DNA of 37,700 bases from an uncultured Actinomycetes bacterium (GTDB taxonomy: Bacteria; Actinomycetota; Acidimicrobiia; IMCC26256; JAGPDB01), in assembly GCA_937872965.1 (NCBI GenBank), contig CALMUU010000227.1, forward strand, positions 1 through 37,700. Direction: 5' to 3'. A program made the position numbers and the translations under genes. The notes beneath the pieces are model-generated. The model was not told the origin of the DNA. It was given only the letters and a program-made list of their open reading frames with translations, and ran no database searches. Positions 4,503-37,700 of this stretch are shown here, in pieces; the stretch's first letter is position 1; each line of letters starts with the position of its first letter.

Positions 4503-4562
4503 AATCACAAGGAGCGAAGGATGAGCGACTGCGAGTTGTGTCCGGCTTTGCCGGCACAACGA
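4503..4562 (+). repeat. Family B 60-bp structured repeat, copy 1
   Basis: The copy reads AATCACAAGGAGCGAAGG at one end, then GAGCGACTGCGAG, then a hairpin: GTTGTG, bulged T, CCGGC, loop TTT, GCCGG, CACAAC. The stem is perfect apart from the bulge. Copies 2-4 lie at 28654-28713, 32543-32602 and 32609-32668 on the opposite strand, each 60 bp from TCG to GTGATT. Copy 1 occupies the gap between the cold-shock-like gene and pckG. The pckG ribosome binding site GAAGGA lies outside the repeat at about 4645-4650. Confidence 0.8.
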
Positions 4563-6806: not shown

Positions 6807-7075
6807 CACTTATCCACACACAGGGTTGGACCCTGGAAAGATATTGTAGATTCGCTTTGTTCGTGATGTGGCAATAGAGCTTTAATAATAAAATTGCGAG
6901 ATACTCAATTGTGTAGTGCGCTTTTGGGTCCTTCTTGTACATGAAAGAATCTTTACGCGCATCCTGCGAAACACGTAGATAAAGTACTTCTGCTTATCGA
7001 TTGACTTCCCGCAGTAAACCTTCCATGATGACCCCATGGCCCTAAATACATACAGCCGCTAAAGGGGAAAATTTC
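6807..7075. other. Repeat-free intergenic region with one DnaA-box-like site
   Basis: This 269-bp gap lacks the repeat families that fill most other gaps. It contains a single perfect DnaA-box sequence, TTATCCACA, at 6810-6818, immediately after the small RAM gene. It also holds an A/T-rich stretch around 6880-6900 and a promoter-like pair at 7001-7029. No tRNA, riboswitch or short gene was recognised in it. Confidence 0.5.
7001..7029 (+). promoter_or_regulatory. Putative sigma-70-type promoter for the metalloprotease gene
   Basis: TTGACT at 7001-7006 is followed after 17 bp by CATGAT at 7024-7029 (4 of 6 to TATAAT). The ribosome binding site AAGGGGA at 7062-7068 and the ATG at 7076 follow at suitable distances. 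Position and spacing fit, but the -10 is weak. Confidence 0.35.
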
Positions 7076-8502: not shown

Positions 8503-8733
8503 AGAAGGTCTGTCCACTACGCAAGATGTTAAGACAACTGAACCAACTGCTGCTGCCTGCTTACTTACTTACTTACTTTAGGGGAGGACCGCATCTGCTG
8601 ACTCAAGTCGCGCTACAACTGAACGAACTGCTGAAACTACGTTATTTTAGGGGAGGGTCCGACCTTGCAAATCGCAGGTGAAGTCGCTTGTGCGACCCTC
8701 TGCTTTTTTCGTATTTGCAAGATCAGACCCTAA
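8503..8733 (+). repeat. Family A locus 1: two tandem units plus terminal hairpin
   Basis: Two units contain the core ACAACTGAACNAACTGCTG (second unit GGAGGACC from 8583). They are followed by GGAGGGTCC at 8652. The hairpin at 8655-8730 has arms GGGTCCGACCTTGCAAAT and ATTTGCAAGATCAGACCC and an inner stem AAGTCGC/GCGACC. The first unit is lengthened by a CTTA microsatellite at about 8561-8578. The right end, TTAGGG on the minus strand (8728-8733), lies 3 nt after the ddl stop codon. The locus separates the convergent protease and ddl genes. No T-tract follows the hairpin on the minus strand, so it is not a classic intrinsic terminator. Confidence 0.85.
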
Positions 8734-8736
8734 GAG

Positions 8737-9822
8737 CTAGTGGTTGAGATTCTTTTTAGATTCGCGACGATCGTGACGCGAAAGTGCGACAGCAATCAAT
8801 TCATCAAGAAGATCCGCATAGCTCATCCCTGAATATTCGAAGAGCTTGGGGAACATTGAAATCGGAGTAAAACCAGGAATAGTGTTGAGTTCATTGACCA
8901 TCCAGGCACCTGTTTCCTTTTCAAGGAACAAGTCCACCCGTGCCATTCCATCACAACACAATGCCTTATATGCTTTGACTGCCAGTTCTTGAGCCGCCTG
9001 CATTTCTCTTTCCGACAAGGGAGCAGGGATACGCAAATCCGCAGCATCATTGATGTACTTATCGTCATACGAATAAAACTCGTCACCCGGAACGATTTCT
9101 CCGGGTACAGAAACACGAACGTCGTCATCACCCATAACCGATAGCTCGATTTCGCGAGCATCGACTGCTTTTTCGACCAAAATCCATTCGTCATAGGTCA
9201 AGGCTGTTTCGATTGCTTCTGCAAGTTCTTCGCGATCGTGGGCCTTGGTAATTCCGACCGACGAACCGAGACTGGCAGGCTTCACGAAACAAGGATACGA
9301 AATGATTGTTTCGACTTTATCGACGAACCCAACGAGTTCACTTTCGCGTGTATAGATAAAAGGTGTTGTAGGAATGAGATGTCCTGTCAACATATTTTTC
9401 GCTGCGATCTTGTTCATACACATTGCCGACCCAAGAACGGATGTTCCCACATAGGGAATATTTGCCATCTCTAATAAACCTTGAATTGTTCCGTCTTCAC
9501 CATAAGGACCATGAAGCATAGGGATGACAAGATCGACAGGATTTCCGCCCACTGCAATGTCACCCGAGCGTTCGACGAGTTCGGTACCAGACAACGACAA
9601 TGTGCGTGGAAGCTCGAAACGAGAATCTTGAAGCTGCTTAAAGGTTTCCTCAGCAAAAAGCCACTCGCCCTGCTCCGCAATAATCACAGGCAACACGTCA
9701 TATTTTGCTGGGTCAAGATTTTGAAGAACTGCACGGGCACTAACAGCCGACACTTCACGCTCTGCGCTTTGACCACCATAGATAACGGCTACACGGAGGC
9801 GCTCAGATCGATTTTTACTCAT
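8737..9822 (-). CDS. ddl: D-alanine--D-alanine ligase
   Basis: Ddl joins two D-Ala with ATP to make the dipeptide that closes the peptidoglycan pentapeptide. The 361-residue protein has the full ATP-grasp layout. It opens VAVIYGGQSAEREVSAVSA, then HGPYGEDGTIQGLLE and PYVGTSVLGSAMCMNK. Next come FVKPASLGSSVGITK, then DGMARVDLF and the metal-binding MVNELNTIPGFT near the end. The start MSKNRSERL leaves 31 bp to the next repeat. ddl also belongs to the gpsA-recG neighbourhood in mycobacteria. The stop codon is 3 nt from a family A element. Confidence 0.96.
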   Translation of the reverse strand: MSKNRSERLRVAVIYGGQSAEREVSAVSARAVLQNLDPAKYDVLPVIIAEQGEWLFAEETFKQLQDSRFELPRTLSLSGTELVERSGDIAVGGNPVDLVIPMLHGPYGEDGTIQGLLEMANIPYVGTSVLGSAMCMNKIAAKNMLTGHLIPTTPFIYTRESELVGFVDKVETIISYPCFVKPASLGSSVGITKAHDREELAEAIETALTYDEWILVEKAVDAREIELSVMGDDDVRVSVPGEIVPGDEFYSYDDKYINDAADLRIPAPLSEREMQAAQELAVKAYKALCCDGMARVDLFLEKETGAWMVNELNTIPGFTPISMFPKLFEYSGMSYADLLDELIAVALSRHDRRESKKNLNH

Positions 9823-9853: not shown

Positions 9854-10007
9854 ACCACTGCCCGTTAGGGTCGTTCCTGGTGGCCGCAATGCGGGAGACA
9901 ACTGAACGAACTGCTGCTACTTCGTTGCTTTAGGGGAGGGTCCGACCTTGGAAAGGATTGTGACCTTTGTAGGTCACTTTTCCTTACTTTCCAAGGTCAG
10001 ACCCTAA
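9854..10007 (+). repeat. Family A locus 2: complete 154-bp element
   Basis: The left end is TTAGGGTCGTTCCTGG and the right end CCAAGGTCAGACCCTAA, so both tips are TTAGGGTC in inverted orientation. Between them lie one core unit (GGGAGACAACTGAACGAACT, then CTGC and TTCGTT pairing back to AACGAA) and the hairpin at 9938-10004. The hairpin arms are GGGTCCGACCTTGGAAAG and CTTTCCAAGGTCAGACCC, with an inner stem GTGACCT/AGGTCAC around TTTG-type loop bases. The stem sequences differ from loci 1 and 3 but still pair. The right tip ends 2 nt from the stop of the gene at 10010. Confidence 0.88.
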
Positions 10008-10009
10008 AT

Positions 10010-10387
10010 CTACAAAAGCACCAGCAATGTTGAGCGTATTCCTAATCCAGCAAGGAAAAGTGAGGAAATGCCATAGATAAGTATTTTCTTTTTCCCAAGT
10101 GTCCGCGAATAAGAATAAATAATTCCTGCTGTCATGATTGCAATGAATCCATAGAAGTAGTGAAATCCTTTAGAAGGATCTACTTTTTCACCAGACATAT
10201 ACAGCGATATTCCTAAAAGGCTTTGCACAGAAATAGCAAGCCAACCAAAATACACCGGCGTAAAGAAATATTTTTTCCTTTTGAGATCGACAAATCTGAG
10301 CGAAATCAACATCAAGATGCCGGCGAATAGATTGATCGCGATTGAAGCATACGCCCAGTCATGATGGAACCGTAATAATTCATTCAC
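10010..10387 (-). CDS. Small four-helix membrane protein, function unknown
   Basis: The 125-residue protein has four likely transmembrane helices at about residues 10-32, 43-64, 76-93 and 102-123. These are separated by short basic loops (DLKRKKYF, TLGKKK), which suggests an inner-membrane protein with positive loops inside. A His-rich N-terminus (RFHHDW) and an FHYFYG motif in helix 3 are the only distinctive residues. I do not recognise the family. It is 19 nt downstream of the PH-domain membrane protein on the same strand, so the two are probably co-transcribed. A family A element abuts its stop codon. Confidence 0.7.
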   Translation of the reverse strand: MNELLRFHHDWAYASIAINLFAGILMLISLRFVDLKRKKYFFTPVYFGWLAISVQSLLGISLYMSGEKVDPSKGFHYFYGFIAIMTAGIIYSYSRTLGKKKILIYGISSLFLAGLGIRSTLLVLL

Positions 10388-11093: not shown

Positions 11094-11120
11094 TGGACGA
11101 TTCTAGCGCGTTTACTTTAA

Positions 11121-11413
11121 GGAGGGTTGCACCTGGAAACCTCAGACGTCGAGACAAGTGAACGAACTGCTGCAACTACGTTCGTTTAGGGGAGGGTCGC
11201 AACTAATAACTACTACCTTCGATACAACTGAACGGACTGCTGCTGGTTACTAGCTCATGGGGAGGGTCCGACCCTGGAAACCTCGGACCTCGAGACAACC
11301 GAACGAACTGCTGCAACTACGTTCGTTTAGGGGAGGGTCCGACCTTGCAAATCGCAGGCGAAGTCGCTTGTGCGACTCTCTGCTTTTTTCGTATTTGCAA
11401 GATCAAACCCTAA
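11121..11413 (+). repeat. Family A locus 3: three tandem ~70-bp units plus terminal hairpin
   Basis: GGAGGGT recurs at 11121, 11191, 11261 and 11332, a period of 70, 70 and 71 bp. Units 1 and 3 are close copies: both contain CCTGGAAACCTC, a GACGTCGAGACAA or GACCTCGAGACAA segment, and AACGAACTGC followed by GTTCGTT. Unit 2 is more diverged but keeps the ACAACTGAACGGACTGCTGC core. The array ends in the hairpin at 11335-11410, with arms GGGTCCGACCTTGCAAAT and ATTTGCAAGATCAAACCC. It fills nearly the whole 323-bp gap. It stops 3 nt from the def stop codon and begins 27 bp from the start of the PH-domain gene. Confidence 0.9.
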
Positions 11414-11416
11414 CTA

Positions 11417-11932
11417 CTAGGAGCGATAAGTTCTTCTGGTGAAGACGTCACGAGCCGTCGTTACACGGTCGAGAAATACTTTGCCTATAACATGGTCGAT
11501 CTCATGTTGGAAAACGCGAGCTTCGAAATCGTGTGCAACGAGCTCGAGCGACTTGCCCTCAGGATCAATCCCTGCAACAATCACGTGTTGTGCGCGGGTG
11601 ACGTTGCCCGTTAAATCGGGAACACTCATGCAGCCTTCACGTTGTTTTATCGGGTTGCTGTGCTCAACAATTAACGGATTGATAACAACAACAAAACCAT
11701 ATTCACTTGAAACTCTCGTATTTTTTGATGCATCGGCAACGAAAATATTCAAATCACTTCCTATTTGATTTGCCGCCAAGCCCACACAGTGGTCAAACTC
11801 TGCCATCGTCTGTGTAAGCCGACGAATAACATCGTGAACTTCCTCACTCGCAACATCAGTCACATCGCGCGCACGGGCGCGCAGAACAGGATCCGGATAA
11901 TAAACAATGCTTCCGATGTCAGAGTTGCACAT
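11417..11932 (-). CDS. def: Peptide deformylase
   Basis: Def removes the formyl group from the N-terminal Met of nascent proteins, using a metal ion. The 171-residue protein carries all three motifs: VGLAANQIG at 50-58, EGCMS with ligand C101, and HEIDH with ligands H143 and H147 and catalytic E144. The start lies 2 nt after the stop of the double-ACT gene, so the two form an operon on the minus strand. A family A array starts 3 nt after its stop. Confidence 0.95.
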   Translation of the reverse strand: MCNSDIGSIVYYPDPVLRARARDVTDVASEEVHDVIRRLTQTMAEFDHCVGLAANQIGSDLNIFVADASKNTRVSSEYGFVVVINPLIVEHSNPIKQREGCMSVPDLTGNVTRAQHVIVAGIDPEGKSLELVAHDFEARVFQHEIDHVIGKVFLDRVTTARDVFTRRTYRS

Positions 11933-23764: not shown

Positions 23765-23798
23765 TTCTGAAGTGATCAATTAAACATTCGTATTTTTT

Positions 23799-23851
23799 GA
23801 GGACGGACCTCGTGCGTTAACGAGTTTTTGAAGGCGGACCTCGCACGCTAC
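23799..23851 (+). repeat. Family D tandem pair (GGACGGACCTCG...)
   Basis: GAGGACGGACCTCGTGCGTTA starts at 23800 and GAAGGCGGACCTCGCACGCTA at 23830, one period of about 30-31 bp. A third copy, GGACGGACCTCGCACGCTAC, lies at 2094-2113 across the recG stop codon. The nearby stretch to 23966 (the rest of this 324-bp gene-free region) holds no other recognised element. Confidence 0.6.
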
Positions 23852-26301: not shown

Positions 26302-26374
26302 GTCATCCTGAGCTTGCGAAGGATCTCACGTTCGCAGTGTTTGAGGAGAGATTCTTCGCTCCGCTCAGAATGAC
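26302..26374. repeat. Family C inverted repeat, second locus
   Basis: GTCATCCTGAGCTTGCGAAG then GATCTC forms the left arm. GAGATTCTTCG then CTCAGAATGAC forms the right arm, an imperfect reverse complement with a ~22-nt loop. It starts 13 nt after the stop of the EAL protein and ends 40 bp before the hydrolase ATG. The hydrolase frame stays open back through it, which would falsely extend that gene. Confidence 0.75.
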
Positions 26375-28605: not shown

Positions 28606-28761
28606 GTCATTCCGAGCCTGCGAGGAATCTCCGCGCAGCGGGTCTACTTGTTGTCGTTGCGCCGGCAAAGCCAGACGTTGCTCGCGGTCACTCATCCTTC
28701 GCTCCCTGTGATTCGTCTCGTACACCGCTGCGCGGAGATCCTTCACTTCGTTCAGGATGAC
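28606..28761. repeat. Family C inverted repeat, third locus, enclosing family B
   Basis: The left arm GTCATTCCGAGCCTGCGAGG then AATCTCCGCGCAGCG (28606-28640) pairs with the right arm CGCTGCGCGGAGATCC then TTCAGGATGAC (28726-28761). The interior contains family B copy 2 (28654-28713). It begins 10 nt after the PAP2 stop. The outer stem is longer than in the other family C loci because CGCTGCGCGG is perfectly palindromic between arms. Confidence 0.78.
28654..28713 (-). repeat. Family B 60-bp structured repeat, copy 2
   Basis: On the plus strand it reads TCGTTGCGCCGGCAAAGCCA, then GACGTTGCTCGCGG, then TCCTTCGCTCCCTGTGATT. It is the reverse complement of the order at 4503-4562. The central CCGGC-AAA-GCCAG hairpin has one changed pair, and the flanking stem is weaker than in copies 1 and 4. 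It sits inside the family C inverted repeat. Confidence 0.82.
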
Positions 28762-29252: not shown

Positions 29253-31136
29253 GTGATAATTTCTTCTTCCGACATAACTGAAGTTGCACGTTCTCGCGAA
29301 AAATCTCAAGCGGATGGAGATATTGCTGTTGATTTAGCAGCGCTCGAAAAACAGGATGTTTCCATCAGCAACGAAAGTCCGAAGCAATCCCAGGATAAGA
29401 AAGTGCCCGCATTTAAATCCTTCTCCACACGACGACGAAATATCTTCATCACTCTTCTCGTTGTGACGACTTTGATTATTGCCCCTGCTTACGGCGAACG
29501 CATTTTTCGAGGTGACTCCATCGCTCATGGAATCAGCGTAGGTGGAATCGACATTGGTGGAATGTCCCCAAAAAATGCAAGTAGTAAACTTGAATCTCAA
29601 TCAAAAAAAGCACTCGAGACACCCTTTGTTTTTGTACTCGGCAAAGATCGCGTTTCCATTTCTTCTCAAGACCTTGGACTTTCCTACGACATTTCTGACT
29701 CAATCAAACGAGCGAGCAACGTTGCAGATTCATACAATCCGACATCCGTGATTGGTGGATTCTTCCAGCGATATACCGTAGGTAATGACATCGATCCAGC
29801 TGTCCGATACGACAGTAAGAAATTTGATGCAGTTGCAGAATCAATCGTTAACCACTTTTCCAAAGGTCGTTCTAATGCCGGAGTAACCATCGAAGGCACC
29901 GAAGTCAGTGTTGTCAAGGCCCAAAGCGGTCGAGGAGTTTCGTTAGAGCAAGCAAGCAAAGCTCTCCGTGAATCAATCCACACTTTCTCTCGATCTCGAC
30001 ATGCTCTCACGAACGAAAAAATCGAAGCACAAATTACTCTTGCCGAGGCAGAAAAAACGGCTGCCATTGTGCGCACCATGCTGAGGGAAAACTCAACTTT
30101 GACTACGCCAGCAGGCAATTCGATTACCATCACCCCTGTTCAACTAGGTAGCGTCATTGCTATAGCACCCAAGGGTTCTCGACTTGATATAAGTATTAAC
30201 CCGTCTACTGTCCGCAGTGTTTTGGGCACACAACTCAGTACTGTAGAAGCAGCGCCAACAGACGCAAGTTTTTCTGTGAGCGGTTCTGGAGTTAGTGTCG
30301 TTCCGAGCATTCCGGGAAAACAAATCGACTTTAACTCGGCCATGACCCATTGGATTAAGGGTGAACATATTTTCTCTGTAAACGTGACCGAAGTTGAACC
30401 TGAGCGAAACACACAATGGGCTCAAAATCTTAACATCACTGAAGCCGTCTCTAGTTTTACAACCAACTTCCCCGCAGGACAAGAGCGGATAAAAAATATT
30501 CGACGAGCTGCAGAAGTAACTAACAATACCGTTGTCGTCCCTGGAGAAACTTTTTCTCTCAACGCCAAACTCGGTCGCCGAACCGCAGAAAGCGGATACG
30601 TCAAAGCACCTGTCTTTTCTAGCGTAGATGGTTTCTTTGATGATTACGGCGGTGGTGCAAGTCAGTTTTCTACAACCCTCTTCAATGCTGCCTTCATTGG
30701 CGGATATAAGGACATAACTCACTCTCCCCACAGCATTTATATCTCTCGATATCCCATGGGTCGTGAAGCAACGCTCAACTACGGTTCGATTGATATGGCA
30801 TTTAAGAACGATTCAAATTCTGGAATACTGATCCGCACTAGTGTTGGGGCAACATCTGTCACCGTCACACTCTATGGCAATAAAGAGGGCCGTGTCGTGA
30901 AACTCGAAGGTCCCGTAGAACTGGGTCGGACAGAGATCGGCACCAAATACATCGATGACCCTAACCTCGAAGCCGGGAAAGAAATTCAAAAGCAAGGTGG
31001 ATATACTGGCATCGTTGTGGATAATTTCCGCACAGTCGATCGCCCTGGACAGCCCGGCAAGAAAGAACGATACCGATGGACCTATCAGATGGTCCCCCGA
31101 GAAGTTATACGCGGCACGAAGGTAGCAGCACCTTAA
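29253..31136 (+). CDS. VanW-family cell-wall-associated protein
   Basis: The 627-residue protein starts at GTG. A cytoplasmic acidic segment (1-55) and a transmembrane helix (about 62-82; IFITLLVVTTLIIAPAY) lead to an extracytoplasmic region. Two weakly similar domains follow, resembling the PG_binding_4 type that commonly precedes VanW domains (GISVGGIDIGGMSPKNA start). The VanW domain spans about 410-560 (NTVVVPGETFSLN, then GGGASQFSTTLFNAAF, then SPHSIYISRYPMG). VanW proteins are linked to the cell wall and vancomycin-type clusters, but the enzyme activity is unclear. It ends at TAA 31134-31136, and a family A element starts one nucleotide later. Confidence 0.88.
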   Translation: MIISSSDITEVARSREKSQADGDIAVDLAALEKQDVSISNESPKQSQDKKVPAFKSFSTRRRNIFITLLVVTTLIIAPAYGERIFRGDSIAHGISVGGIDIGGMSPKNASSKLESQSKKALETPFVFVLGKDRVSISSQDLGLSYDISDSIKRASNVADSYNPTSVIGGFFQRYTVGNDIDPAVRYDSKKFDAVAESIVNHFSKGRSNAGVTIEGTEVSVVKAQSGRGVSLEQASKALRESIHTFSRSRHALTNEKIEAQITLAEAEKTAAIVRTMLRENSTLTTPAGNSITITPVQLGSVIAIAPKGSRLDISINPSTVRSVLGTQLSTVEAAPTDASFSVSGSGVSVVPSIPGKQIDFNSAMTHWIKGEHIFSVNVTEVEPERNTQWAQNLNITEAVSSFTTNFPAGQERIKNIRRAAEVTNNTVVVPGETFSLNAKLGRRTAESGYVKAPVFSSVDGFFDDYGGGASQFSTTLFNAAFIGGYKDITHSPHSIYISRYPMGREATLNYGSIDMAFKNDSNSGILIRTSVGATSVTVTLYGNKEGRVVKLEGPVELGRTEIGTKYIDDPNLEAGKEIQKQGGYTGIVVDNFRTVDRPGQPGKKERYRWTYQMVPREVIRGTKVAAP

Positions 31137-31137
31137 T

Positions 31138-31262
31138 TTAGGGCCTGATCTTGCAAATACGAAACAAGCAGAGAGTCGCACAAGCGACTTCACTTGCGAT
31201 CTGCTAGGTCGGACCCTCCGCCGAATCAACTACGTTGCAGCAATTCGTTCAGTTGTCTCAAG
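31138..31262 (-). repeat. Family A locus 4, hairpin plus one unit
   Basis: Reading plus, TTAGGGCCTGATCTTGC starts 1 nt after the VanW stop. The partly decayed hairpin is 31141-31216, with inner stem AGTCGC/GCGACT around ACAA. The reverse complement of the unit core (TTCGTTCAGTTGTCTC) ends the element. One outer arm has drifted (GATCTGCTAGGTCGG instead of GATTTGCAAGGTCGG). It separates VanW from the convergent PhoU/RCK_C gene. Confidence 0.82.
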
Positions 31263-31270
31263 TCTTGCAC

Positions 31271-32494: not shown

Positions 32495-32542
32495 TGTTGG
32501 CTCCTTTAGCTAACAGAATAATTGTTTTTCTGTGATTTTTAG

Positions 32543-32668
32543 TCGTAACGCCGGCAAAGCCGGACGTAACTCGCGGTCGCTCCTCTGTCGCTCCCTGTGA
32601 TTCATTTATCGCAATGCTGGCAGAACCAGACATTGCTCGCGGTCGCTCCTCTGTCGCTCCCTGTGATT
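32543..32668 (-). repeat. Family B copies 3 and 4, direct tandem
   Basis: Two 60-bp copies (32543-32602 and 32609-32668) are spaced by 66 bp. Both end CGCTCCCTGTGATT, preceded by TCGCGGTCGCTCC(T)CTGT-type sequence. A tail-like TGTGATT at 32531-32537 suggests a third, truncated copy. The hairpins differ: copy 3 has CCGGC-AAA-GCCGG; copy 4 has CTGG-CAGAA-CCAG with flanking stem GCAATG/CATTGC (read on the minus strand), so the pairing is compensated. They separate the transporter and its probable regulator. Confidence 0.85.
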
Positions 32669-32683
32669 CGTGATAATTTCCGT

Positions 32684-33967: not shown

Positions 33968-34081
33968 TTTAGGGTTGTTCCTGGTGCGAAGCAGCAGGTG
34001 CGGCCCTCCCCCAAAGCAACAAACCCGCAGCAGTTCGTTCAGTTGTCTCCCATCTTGCAGACAGCCAGGAACGACACTAAA
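33968..34081 (-). repeat. Family A locus 5: 114-bp element with 17-bp terminal inverted repeats
   Basis: TTTAGGGTTGTTCCTGG at 33968-33984 and CCAGGAACGACACTAAA at 34065-34081 are inverted repeats with two mismatches. Inside, on the minus strand, lie the core ACAACTGAACGAACTGCTGC and GGGGGAGGGCCGCACC. It lacks the second hairpin of other loci, so it may be the shortest unit. On the minus strand the terminal TTAGTG starts 2 nt after the stop codon of the NifU_N-like gene. Confidence 0.85.
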
Positions 34082-34082
34082 A

Positions 34083-34403
34083 CTACTCAGCCACTGCCCA
34101 ACCCGCATGATCCCCATAAAAACGGAAAAGATTCTCGATCGTTTCGCTTATCTGCTTTTCGAGCTTTCCAAATGCTTCCGGCTCACAATTGATTGTCACA
34201 ATATTCGAATATACAGAGACTGTGTCCACTCCCATTGCAAGGAGACGTTGGGCTAAAACTTCTGCGGGATTATTTGTGTCAACCGTCATCGTCTCGTCAG
34301 AGTAAGTGATGATTTCCATTCCTGTTAAAGACCGGTTTAGTGAATATATATGCGCTGATTCGACTCCGCTCTCAACACGAGTAACTGTGATGTCTTGTCC
34401 CAT
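34083..34403 (-). CDS. NifU N-terminal (Nfu_N)-like protein
   Basis: The 106-residue protein matches the small Nfu/NifU N-terminal domain: TNNPAEVLAQRLLAMGVDTVSVYSNIVTINCEP can be read as NNPAEVLAQRLL, then GVDTVSVYSNIVTI. A C-terminal helix (FGKLEKQISETIENLF) follows. These domains occur alone or fused to the Cys-containing NifU scaffold domain, which is absent here, so Fe-S assembly is only suggested. It starts 6 nt after rnhB on the same strand, so it is likely the last gene of plsC-gpsA-rnhB. A family A element begins 2 nt after its stop. Confidence 0.7.
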   Translation of the reverse strand: MGQDITVTRVESGVESAHIYSLNRSLTGMEIITYSDETMTVDTNNPAEVLAQRLLAMGVDTVSVYSNIVTINCEPEAFGKLEKQISETIENLFRFYGDHAGWAVAE

Positions 34404-37390: not shown

Positions 37391-37700
37391 TTATCGAGCG
37401 CGACGCTTTGTAGCTTTACGTGCAGTTGTTTTGCGAGCTGCTGGTTTGCGAGCTGCAGTTTTCTTCGCAGGAGCTTTTTTAGCTGCTGCTTTCTTAGCTG
37501 CTGGCTTACGCTTCGCTGCTGCCTTCTTCGCAGGAGCTTTTTTAGCTGCTGCCTTCTTAGCTGCTGGCTTACGCTTCGCTGGAGCTTTCTTCGCTGTAGC
37601 TTTTTTAGCAGTAGTCTTCTTTGCAGTTGACTTCTTTGCTGCAGTTTTCTTAGCTGCTGGCTTACGCTTCGCTGCTGCCTTCTTCGCAGGAGCTTTTTTA
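37391..37700 (-). CDS. hupB: HU/histone-like protein with Lys-Ala-rich tail (partial)
   Basis: The reading frame enters from the right edge and ends at TAA 37391-37393. Nearly all 102 visible residues are repeats of [18 protein letters not shown] type, ending [13 protein letters not shown]. This matches the C-terminal tail of actinobacterial HupB, a nucleoid protein whose tail wraps DNA, or a histone-H1-like protein. The N-terminal HU fold would lie beyond the edge, so the gene symbol is tentative. In mycobacteria hupB is close to cofC and gpsA, which supports it. A strong intrinsic terminator follows. The DNA repeats make the gene prone to slippage and assembly error. Confidence 0.75.

Follow-up and report, generated by a model that had tools for sequence, protein, structure and literature searches.

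The hairpin-core repeat is a species-specific family of about 50 scattered, non-coding copies. It is most likely mobile DNA that is copied by a single-strand-DNA transposase of the type that spreads REPs, and not a classical inverted-repeat MITE. The copies are probably composite REP/REPIN-like elements (termed BIME-like here because of their tandem core) that are mobilised in trans by a Y1 transposase. The host genome (G000; 1.88 Mb, 264 contigs, 96% complete) was compared with two genomes of the same genus, G001 and G002. Copies at the contig ends of G000 are cut, and several contigs end within copies.

Copies in the window

The window (the whole stretch of 37,700 nucleotides that was analysed) includes a copy at 33968-34081 (minus strand), which is made of three REP-like arms with a hairpin module and one core and comes within 1 nt of the stop codon of gene 34083-34403 (minus strand). 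By direct reading, its outer arm TTTAGGGTTGTTCCTGG (33968-33984, plus strand) is the 5' arm of a hairpin on the plus strand. The inner arm GCAGGTGCGGCCCTCCCC (33993-34012, plus strand) pairs with this outer arm to form the family hairpin. The core unit lies at 34013-34060 (minus strand) and reads GGGAGACAACTGAACGAACTGCTGCGGGTTTGTTGCTTT on the unit strand, and a second outer arm, CCAGGAACGACACTAAA, follows in inverted orientation (34065-34081, plus strand); only 3 of 64 units carry an arm of this kind. The initial annotation had described inverted ends of 17 bp around a single core. This layout is present, with 15 of 17 positions complementary: TTTAGGGTTGTTCCTGG and TTTAGTGTCGTTCCTGG (the reverse complement of CCAGGAACGACACTAAA) are identical at 15/17 on direct reading. 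When the plus strand of this 114-bp copy is folded as single-stranded DNA, the tips pair (z = -2.7), and 2 of 200 shuffled sequences fold equally well.

Several other copies are found in the window. The copy at 9865-10008 (plus strand) has an outer inverted arm TTAGGGTCGTTCCTGG, one core and a hairpin, and lies about 2 nt from the stop codon of 10010-10387 (minus strand). It had been annotated as a 154-bp element at 9854-10007; the tip is indeed there, but it starts at 9865 and the element is approximately 144 bp long. The copy at 8522-8733 (plus strand) has two tandem cores and a hairpin and is located between two convergent genes, 3 nt from the stop codon of 8737-9822 (minus strand). The copy at 11119-11413 (plus strand) consists of a hairpin and three cores in tandem, spaced 70-71 bp apart, and is 3 nt from the stop codon of 11417-11932 (minus strand). 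The copy at 31137-31269 (minus strand) occupies the entire space between the stop codons of two convergent genes, at 31136 and 31271. A lone arm of the kind found on either side of the Y1 transposase gene, AGGGTCCAACCC, lies at 6823-6834 (minus strand).

The window also carries repeats of other types. A dispersed repeat with GAGGACGGACCTCG (reverse CGAGGTCCGTCCTC) occurs at 2083-2112 and 23791-23851; its sequence is similar to the Y1-flanking motif of G001 and it is possibly a third REP-type family of G000. A distinct dispersed family, AATCACAGGGAGCGA...GTCCGGCTTTGCCGGC, is present at 4503-4562, 28648-28714 and 32537-32669, and elsewhere in the genome it sometimes adjoins copies of the hairpin-core family. 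The GTCATCCTGAGC...GAAGGATCTC repeat (2059-2085 and 26302-26328 in the window; loci L012, L013 and L021) is interleaved with the hairpin-core family and is once found within a copy, in the loop at L021. The right end of the window (37422-37700) is an array of repeats with a 15-bp period, one minus-strand frame of which reads as an alanine/lysine/arginine-rich protein tail.

A conserved hairpin with an attached core

A 16-base core word allowing up to two mismatches has 61 matches in the 1.88-Mb genome, compared to one for a reversed-pattern control. A covariance model built from 44 copies of the family has 53 matches in G000, and one marginal match (E-value about 0.003) in each of G001 and G002; the 58 other genomes searched from the order and class have no match. 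Among public genomes, a core 20-mer is matched exactly at two isolated places in cyanobacterial records, which is not a sign of a family, and it has no match in viral contigs.

Copies read on the unit strand follow a single plan: core (CGATACAACTGAACGAACTGCTGCTNNTTAGTTGCTTT), then GGGGAGGGYCSNACCT, a variable loop and AGGWNCRACCCTAACT. The constant part is the hairpin module GGGGAGGGYCSNACCT...AGGWNCRACCCTAACT, to which a core of approximately 57 nt is usually attached. One to three cores are found in tandem, mostly 68-72 bp apart; a GGGGAGGGYCGCACCTG-type half-arm joins each of them, and the full hairpin is present only after the last core. Hairpin modules free of a core also occur, with sharp ends GGGG and CCCTAACT. 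Upstream of the 64 cores with sufficient upstream sequence, the outer inverted repeat occurs in three (33968, 9865 and L017 on contig C61), a GAGGGYCGCACCT junction in 24 and neither of these in 37. Because core-free hairpins exist and the outer arm is this rare, the hairpin and not the outer inverted repeat is taken as the constant unit.

There is strong evidence that this hairpin of two inverted REP-like arms is conserved through compensatory change. On the strand TTAGGGT...ACCCTCCCC, 96.2% of the proposed pair cells are standard, compared to 86.2% after shuffling, and pairing falls to 47-48% (maximum 48%) when the partner is slid by one base. Double changes are found at 9 of the 15 hairpin pairs (74 double-change cells versus 26 in shuffled data). 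The loops belong to several unrelated sequence classes, and the arms remain complementary. Wobble pairs are G.U on the TTAGGGT strand and A.C on the opposite strand; this one-strand G.U pairing suggests selection on one single strand, either RNA or single-stranded DNA. A candidate helix within the core (helix 2 of the model) was rejected, as its pairs hardly vary and lack covariation support.

Integron attC sites carry a GTTRRRY box and are found in cassette arrays. Resemblance to such sites was considered and rejected by eye: the hairpin variability is similar, but the tips of the family have no GTTRRRY box and the copies lie outside cassette arrays.

Some copies bear on the history of the family. 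L138/L139 (C111:7058) and L140 (C136:399) have near-identical flanks and the same hairpin module with different loops; the extra AGTCGCTTCGCTCCTGG in one of these loops suggests loop growth after duplication. At L100 and L107, hairpins are nested or back-to-back, with one tip beside or inside another, an arrangement that is useful for determining insertion order.

Orthologous gaps, target sites and gene ends

Orthologous loci in G001 and G002 were located through shared neighbouring genes. At 31137, the gap between the convergent genes, filled in G000, is element-free in both G001 (approximately 57 bp) and G002 (approximately 60 bp). The G001 gap orthologous to 11119 is element-free as well (approximately 62 bp), and at 33968 G001 has approximately 76 bp of unrelated sequence. 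These are presence/absence differences and not base-exact empty sites, for which the genomes are too distant (approximately 57-60% protein identity at RNase HII). Movement of the family is inferred. The initial annotation had proposed a non-autonomous mobile element and had named vertical conservation of all loci with no empty sites as the observation that would speak against it. That observation was not made: the elements are absent from orthologous gaps in same-genus genomes. This absence and their dispersed, non-coding nature support the proposal.

Target-site duplications had also been proposed as a check. At eight sharp-ended, hairpin-only copies, the mean duplication is 0.88 nt versus 1.37 nt in shuffled data, which is not above chance. 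A CT dinucleotide is found one base past ACCCTA in 22 of 55 copies, where about three are expected; REP transposases cut at a CT adjoining the hairpin (PMC8266576).

If the family were a classical MITE, they would have terminal inverted repeats of 17 bp and would have arisen by deletion from a DDE transposon, whose transposase would move the copies with duplication of the target. The inverted outer tips of the 33968 and 9865 copies and the non-coding, dispersed nature of the elements are consistent with this origin. However, the outer tips occur in only 3 of the 64 units, and the eight hairpin-only copies give no signal of target duplication. In a search for two DDE families, no DDE_Tnp_1 (PF01609) gene was found in G000, and the one match to rve (PF00665) is sub-threshold and lacks matching ends. 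With a hairpin as the conserved part and a Y1/HUH protein as the candidate partner, the MITE interpretation of the initial annotation is not supported in its strict sense, and an origin from a DDE transposon is highly improbable.

The hairpin tip lies -4 to +10 nt from a stop codon in 14 of the 21 cases that have a stop on that side, according to automatic gene calls with uncurated starts. By the same automatic calls, the offset is -4 in three of these 14 cases, such that the element's own TTAG provides the TAG stop. Closeness to stop codons has also been described for GTAG REPs (PMC3733652). This proximity, together with the covarying G.U pairs on one strand only, would fit amplified 3'-UTR RNA structures or transcription terminators, retained for their action at gene ends, with mobility being incidental or past. 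Other hairpins in the genome do resemble intrinsic terminators (e.g., GGAGGGCCGTGGGCGG...CCCTCTTTTTTT in L027). The 39 resolved copies, however, comprise 7 in convergent, 24 in tandem and 8 in divergent gene contexts, the last being between two gene starts, and because orientation to the neighbouring genes is this mixed a pure terminator role does not fit. In addition, there is no Rfam match at the gathering score, no consistent T-run after the hairpin, and no element at the same genes in the sister genomes. Amplification for such a role is therefore unlikely.

The Y1 transposase and its flanking palindromes

The initial annotation had predicted a transposase elsewhere in the genome, and a Y1 gene with similar flanking repeats is indeed present. 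G000 has one Y1_Tnp gene (PF01797), located on contig C130, which scores above the Pfam cut-off and has an intact frame. Its protein scores 39.2 bits against the NCBIfam model REP_Tyr_transpos, below the cut-off of 80, and has no match among PDB chains. Exactly one Y1 gene is found in each of the three genomes of the genus, and such a gene is present in only 2 of the 58 others searched. All three proteins share conserved HxH and YIHLNP regions, and the three genes have different neighbours. Inverted repeats lie on both sides of each gene (TTTGCAGGGTCCAACCTTGC in G000, CAAGGTCCGTCCCTGC in G001 and TAAGAGGGTCCGACCCTCC in G002), and all of these repeats contain GGTCC(G/A)(A/T)CC.

Related motifs are dispersed in all three genomes. 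A search with RGGTCCGWCCYT gives 36 dispersed copies in G000, 28 in G001 and 32 in G002 (controls: 0-2). In G001, 25 of the 28 copies read GGTCCGTCC, and in G002 all 32 read GGTCCGACC; in both cases these are the letters of the genome's own Y1 flanks. The palindrome flanking the G000 gene, AGGGTCCAACC, is dispersed too, and exact inverted doublets of it are found on C167 and C243.

The flank arm of the G000 gene, AGGGTCCAACCTTGCAA, matches one class of family arm, AGGGTCCGACCTTGCAA, at 16 of 17 positions; in a control, 4 of 513 G000 windows also match at 15-16 of 17, some of which may hold unfiltered family copies. At least one central base differs between the family arm and the flank palindrome (GGTCCGACC vs GGTCCAACC), and so the family is not simply the C130 transposase's own ends. 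The family has TTAG and GGAG tags and lacks the GTAG (GYRG-type) tag, and the G000 flank palindromes carry GCAG. The case for linking the family to the C130 protein is good but circumstantial, and we infer this protein to be the mover.

Alternatively, the mover of the family may be a single-strand recombinase, of the IS200/IS605 or another type, that the incomplete assembly lacks, with the resemblance to the C130 flank reflecting descent from a shared older REP. The fragmented state of the assembly leaves room for such a gene, and the one-base difference in the arm points the same way. On the other hand, G000 has a single Y1 gene and no TnpB gene was found in it, and genomes of the genus as a rule have one Y1 gene together with dispersed motifs that match it. 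A missing recombinase is very unlikely.

Mobilisation by the Y1 transposase would proceed as follows. The mobile part would be the hairpin, in which two inverted REP-type arms (GGAG-GGTCCGACCTTGGAAA and TTAG-GGTCTGATCTTGGAAA, with variants) enclose a variable loop. The core is attached on one side and may be repeated in tandem together with half an arm. The single C130 protein, a putative Y1 (HUH) tyrosine transposase of the REP-associated type, would bind the folded hairpin in single-stranded DNA, cut beside it (at the CT dinucleotide enriched at the 3' tip) and paste it elsewhere without target duplication. Copies persist mainly in short intergenic gaps, often beside stop codons. Plain REPs have nothing equivalent to the conserved tandem core, which argues against this model; we favour the core as a passenger. 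It is quite unlikely that core and hairpin together are a functional RNA, in which case a REP-type system would have recruited a conserved passenger of approximately 57 nt and would spread it to gene ends as a post-transcriptional module or a supply of stop codons.

Relation to known repeat systems

The family resembles REPs and REPINs with their RAYT/TnpA-REP proteins (PMC3116915, PMC2817692, PMC8266576), which are short extragenic palindromes forming an inverted-doublet hairpin with compensatory changes. Shared features also include a CT beside the hairpin, the absence of target duplication and, in G001 and G002, genome-specific variants that match the transposase flank. The single Y1 gene also has inverted REP-like flanks, which in G000 match one class of family arm except at a central base. 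Unlike those systems, the family has TTAG/GGAG tags in place of GTAG, an attached conserved tandem core of approximately 57 nt, and an arm that is not identical to the Y1 flank of G000. As the GTAG tag is lacking and the transposase falls below the RAYT cut-off, strict RAYT/REP membership is not claimed, and the system is said only to work like one.

TIRtrons and TIRYT genes, with their moderately abundant TIR families (PMC3733652), similarly combine a RAYT-like gene with longer inverted repeats that are dispersed as single copies or dimers. The description of these systems includes no composite core, and their shared TIR motif GGGGWSAS is similar but not identical to GGGGAGGG of the present family. 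BIMEs (PMC2817692) are likewise mosaics of palindromic units and linkers that are amplified in tandem and mostly extragenic; they alternate full palindromes, whereas the tandem units here are half-arm plus core in one orientation. The family is like MITEs in being small, non-coding, dispersed and missing at orthologous sites, but it lacks a constant terminal inverted repeat, target duplication and, among the two families searched, a DDE partner. The 17-bp "terminal inverted repeat" of one copy can thus mislead.

If some other transposase gene carried TTAGGGTYGTTCC at its ends, the Y1 reading would be refuted. The present results add a REP/transposase pair in this genus, where the repeat motif exists in a separate version in each of the three species. 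As the dispersed repeats of two of these species carry the letters of their transposase flanks, co-evolution of Y1 protein and hairpin becomes directly testable, and the composite core raises the question of passenger capture by REP hairpins.
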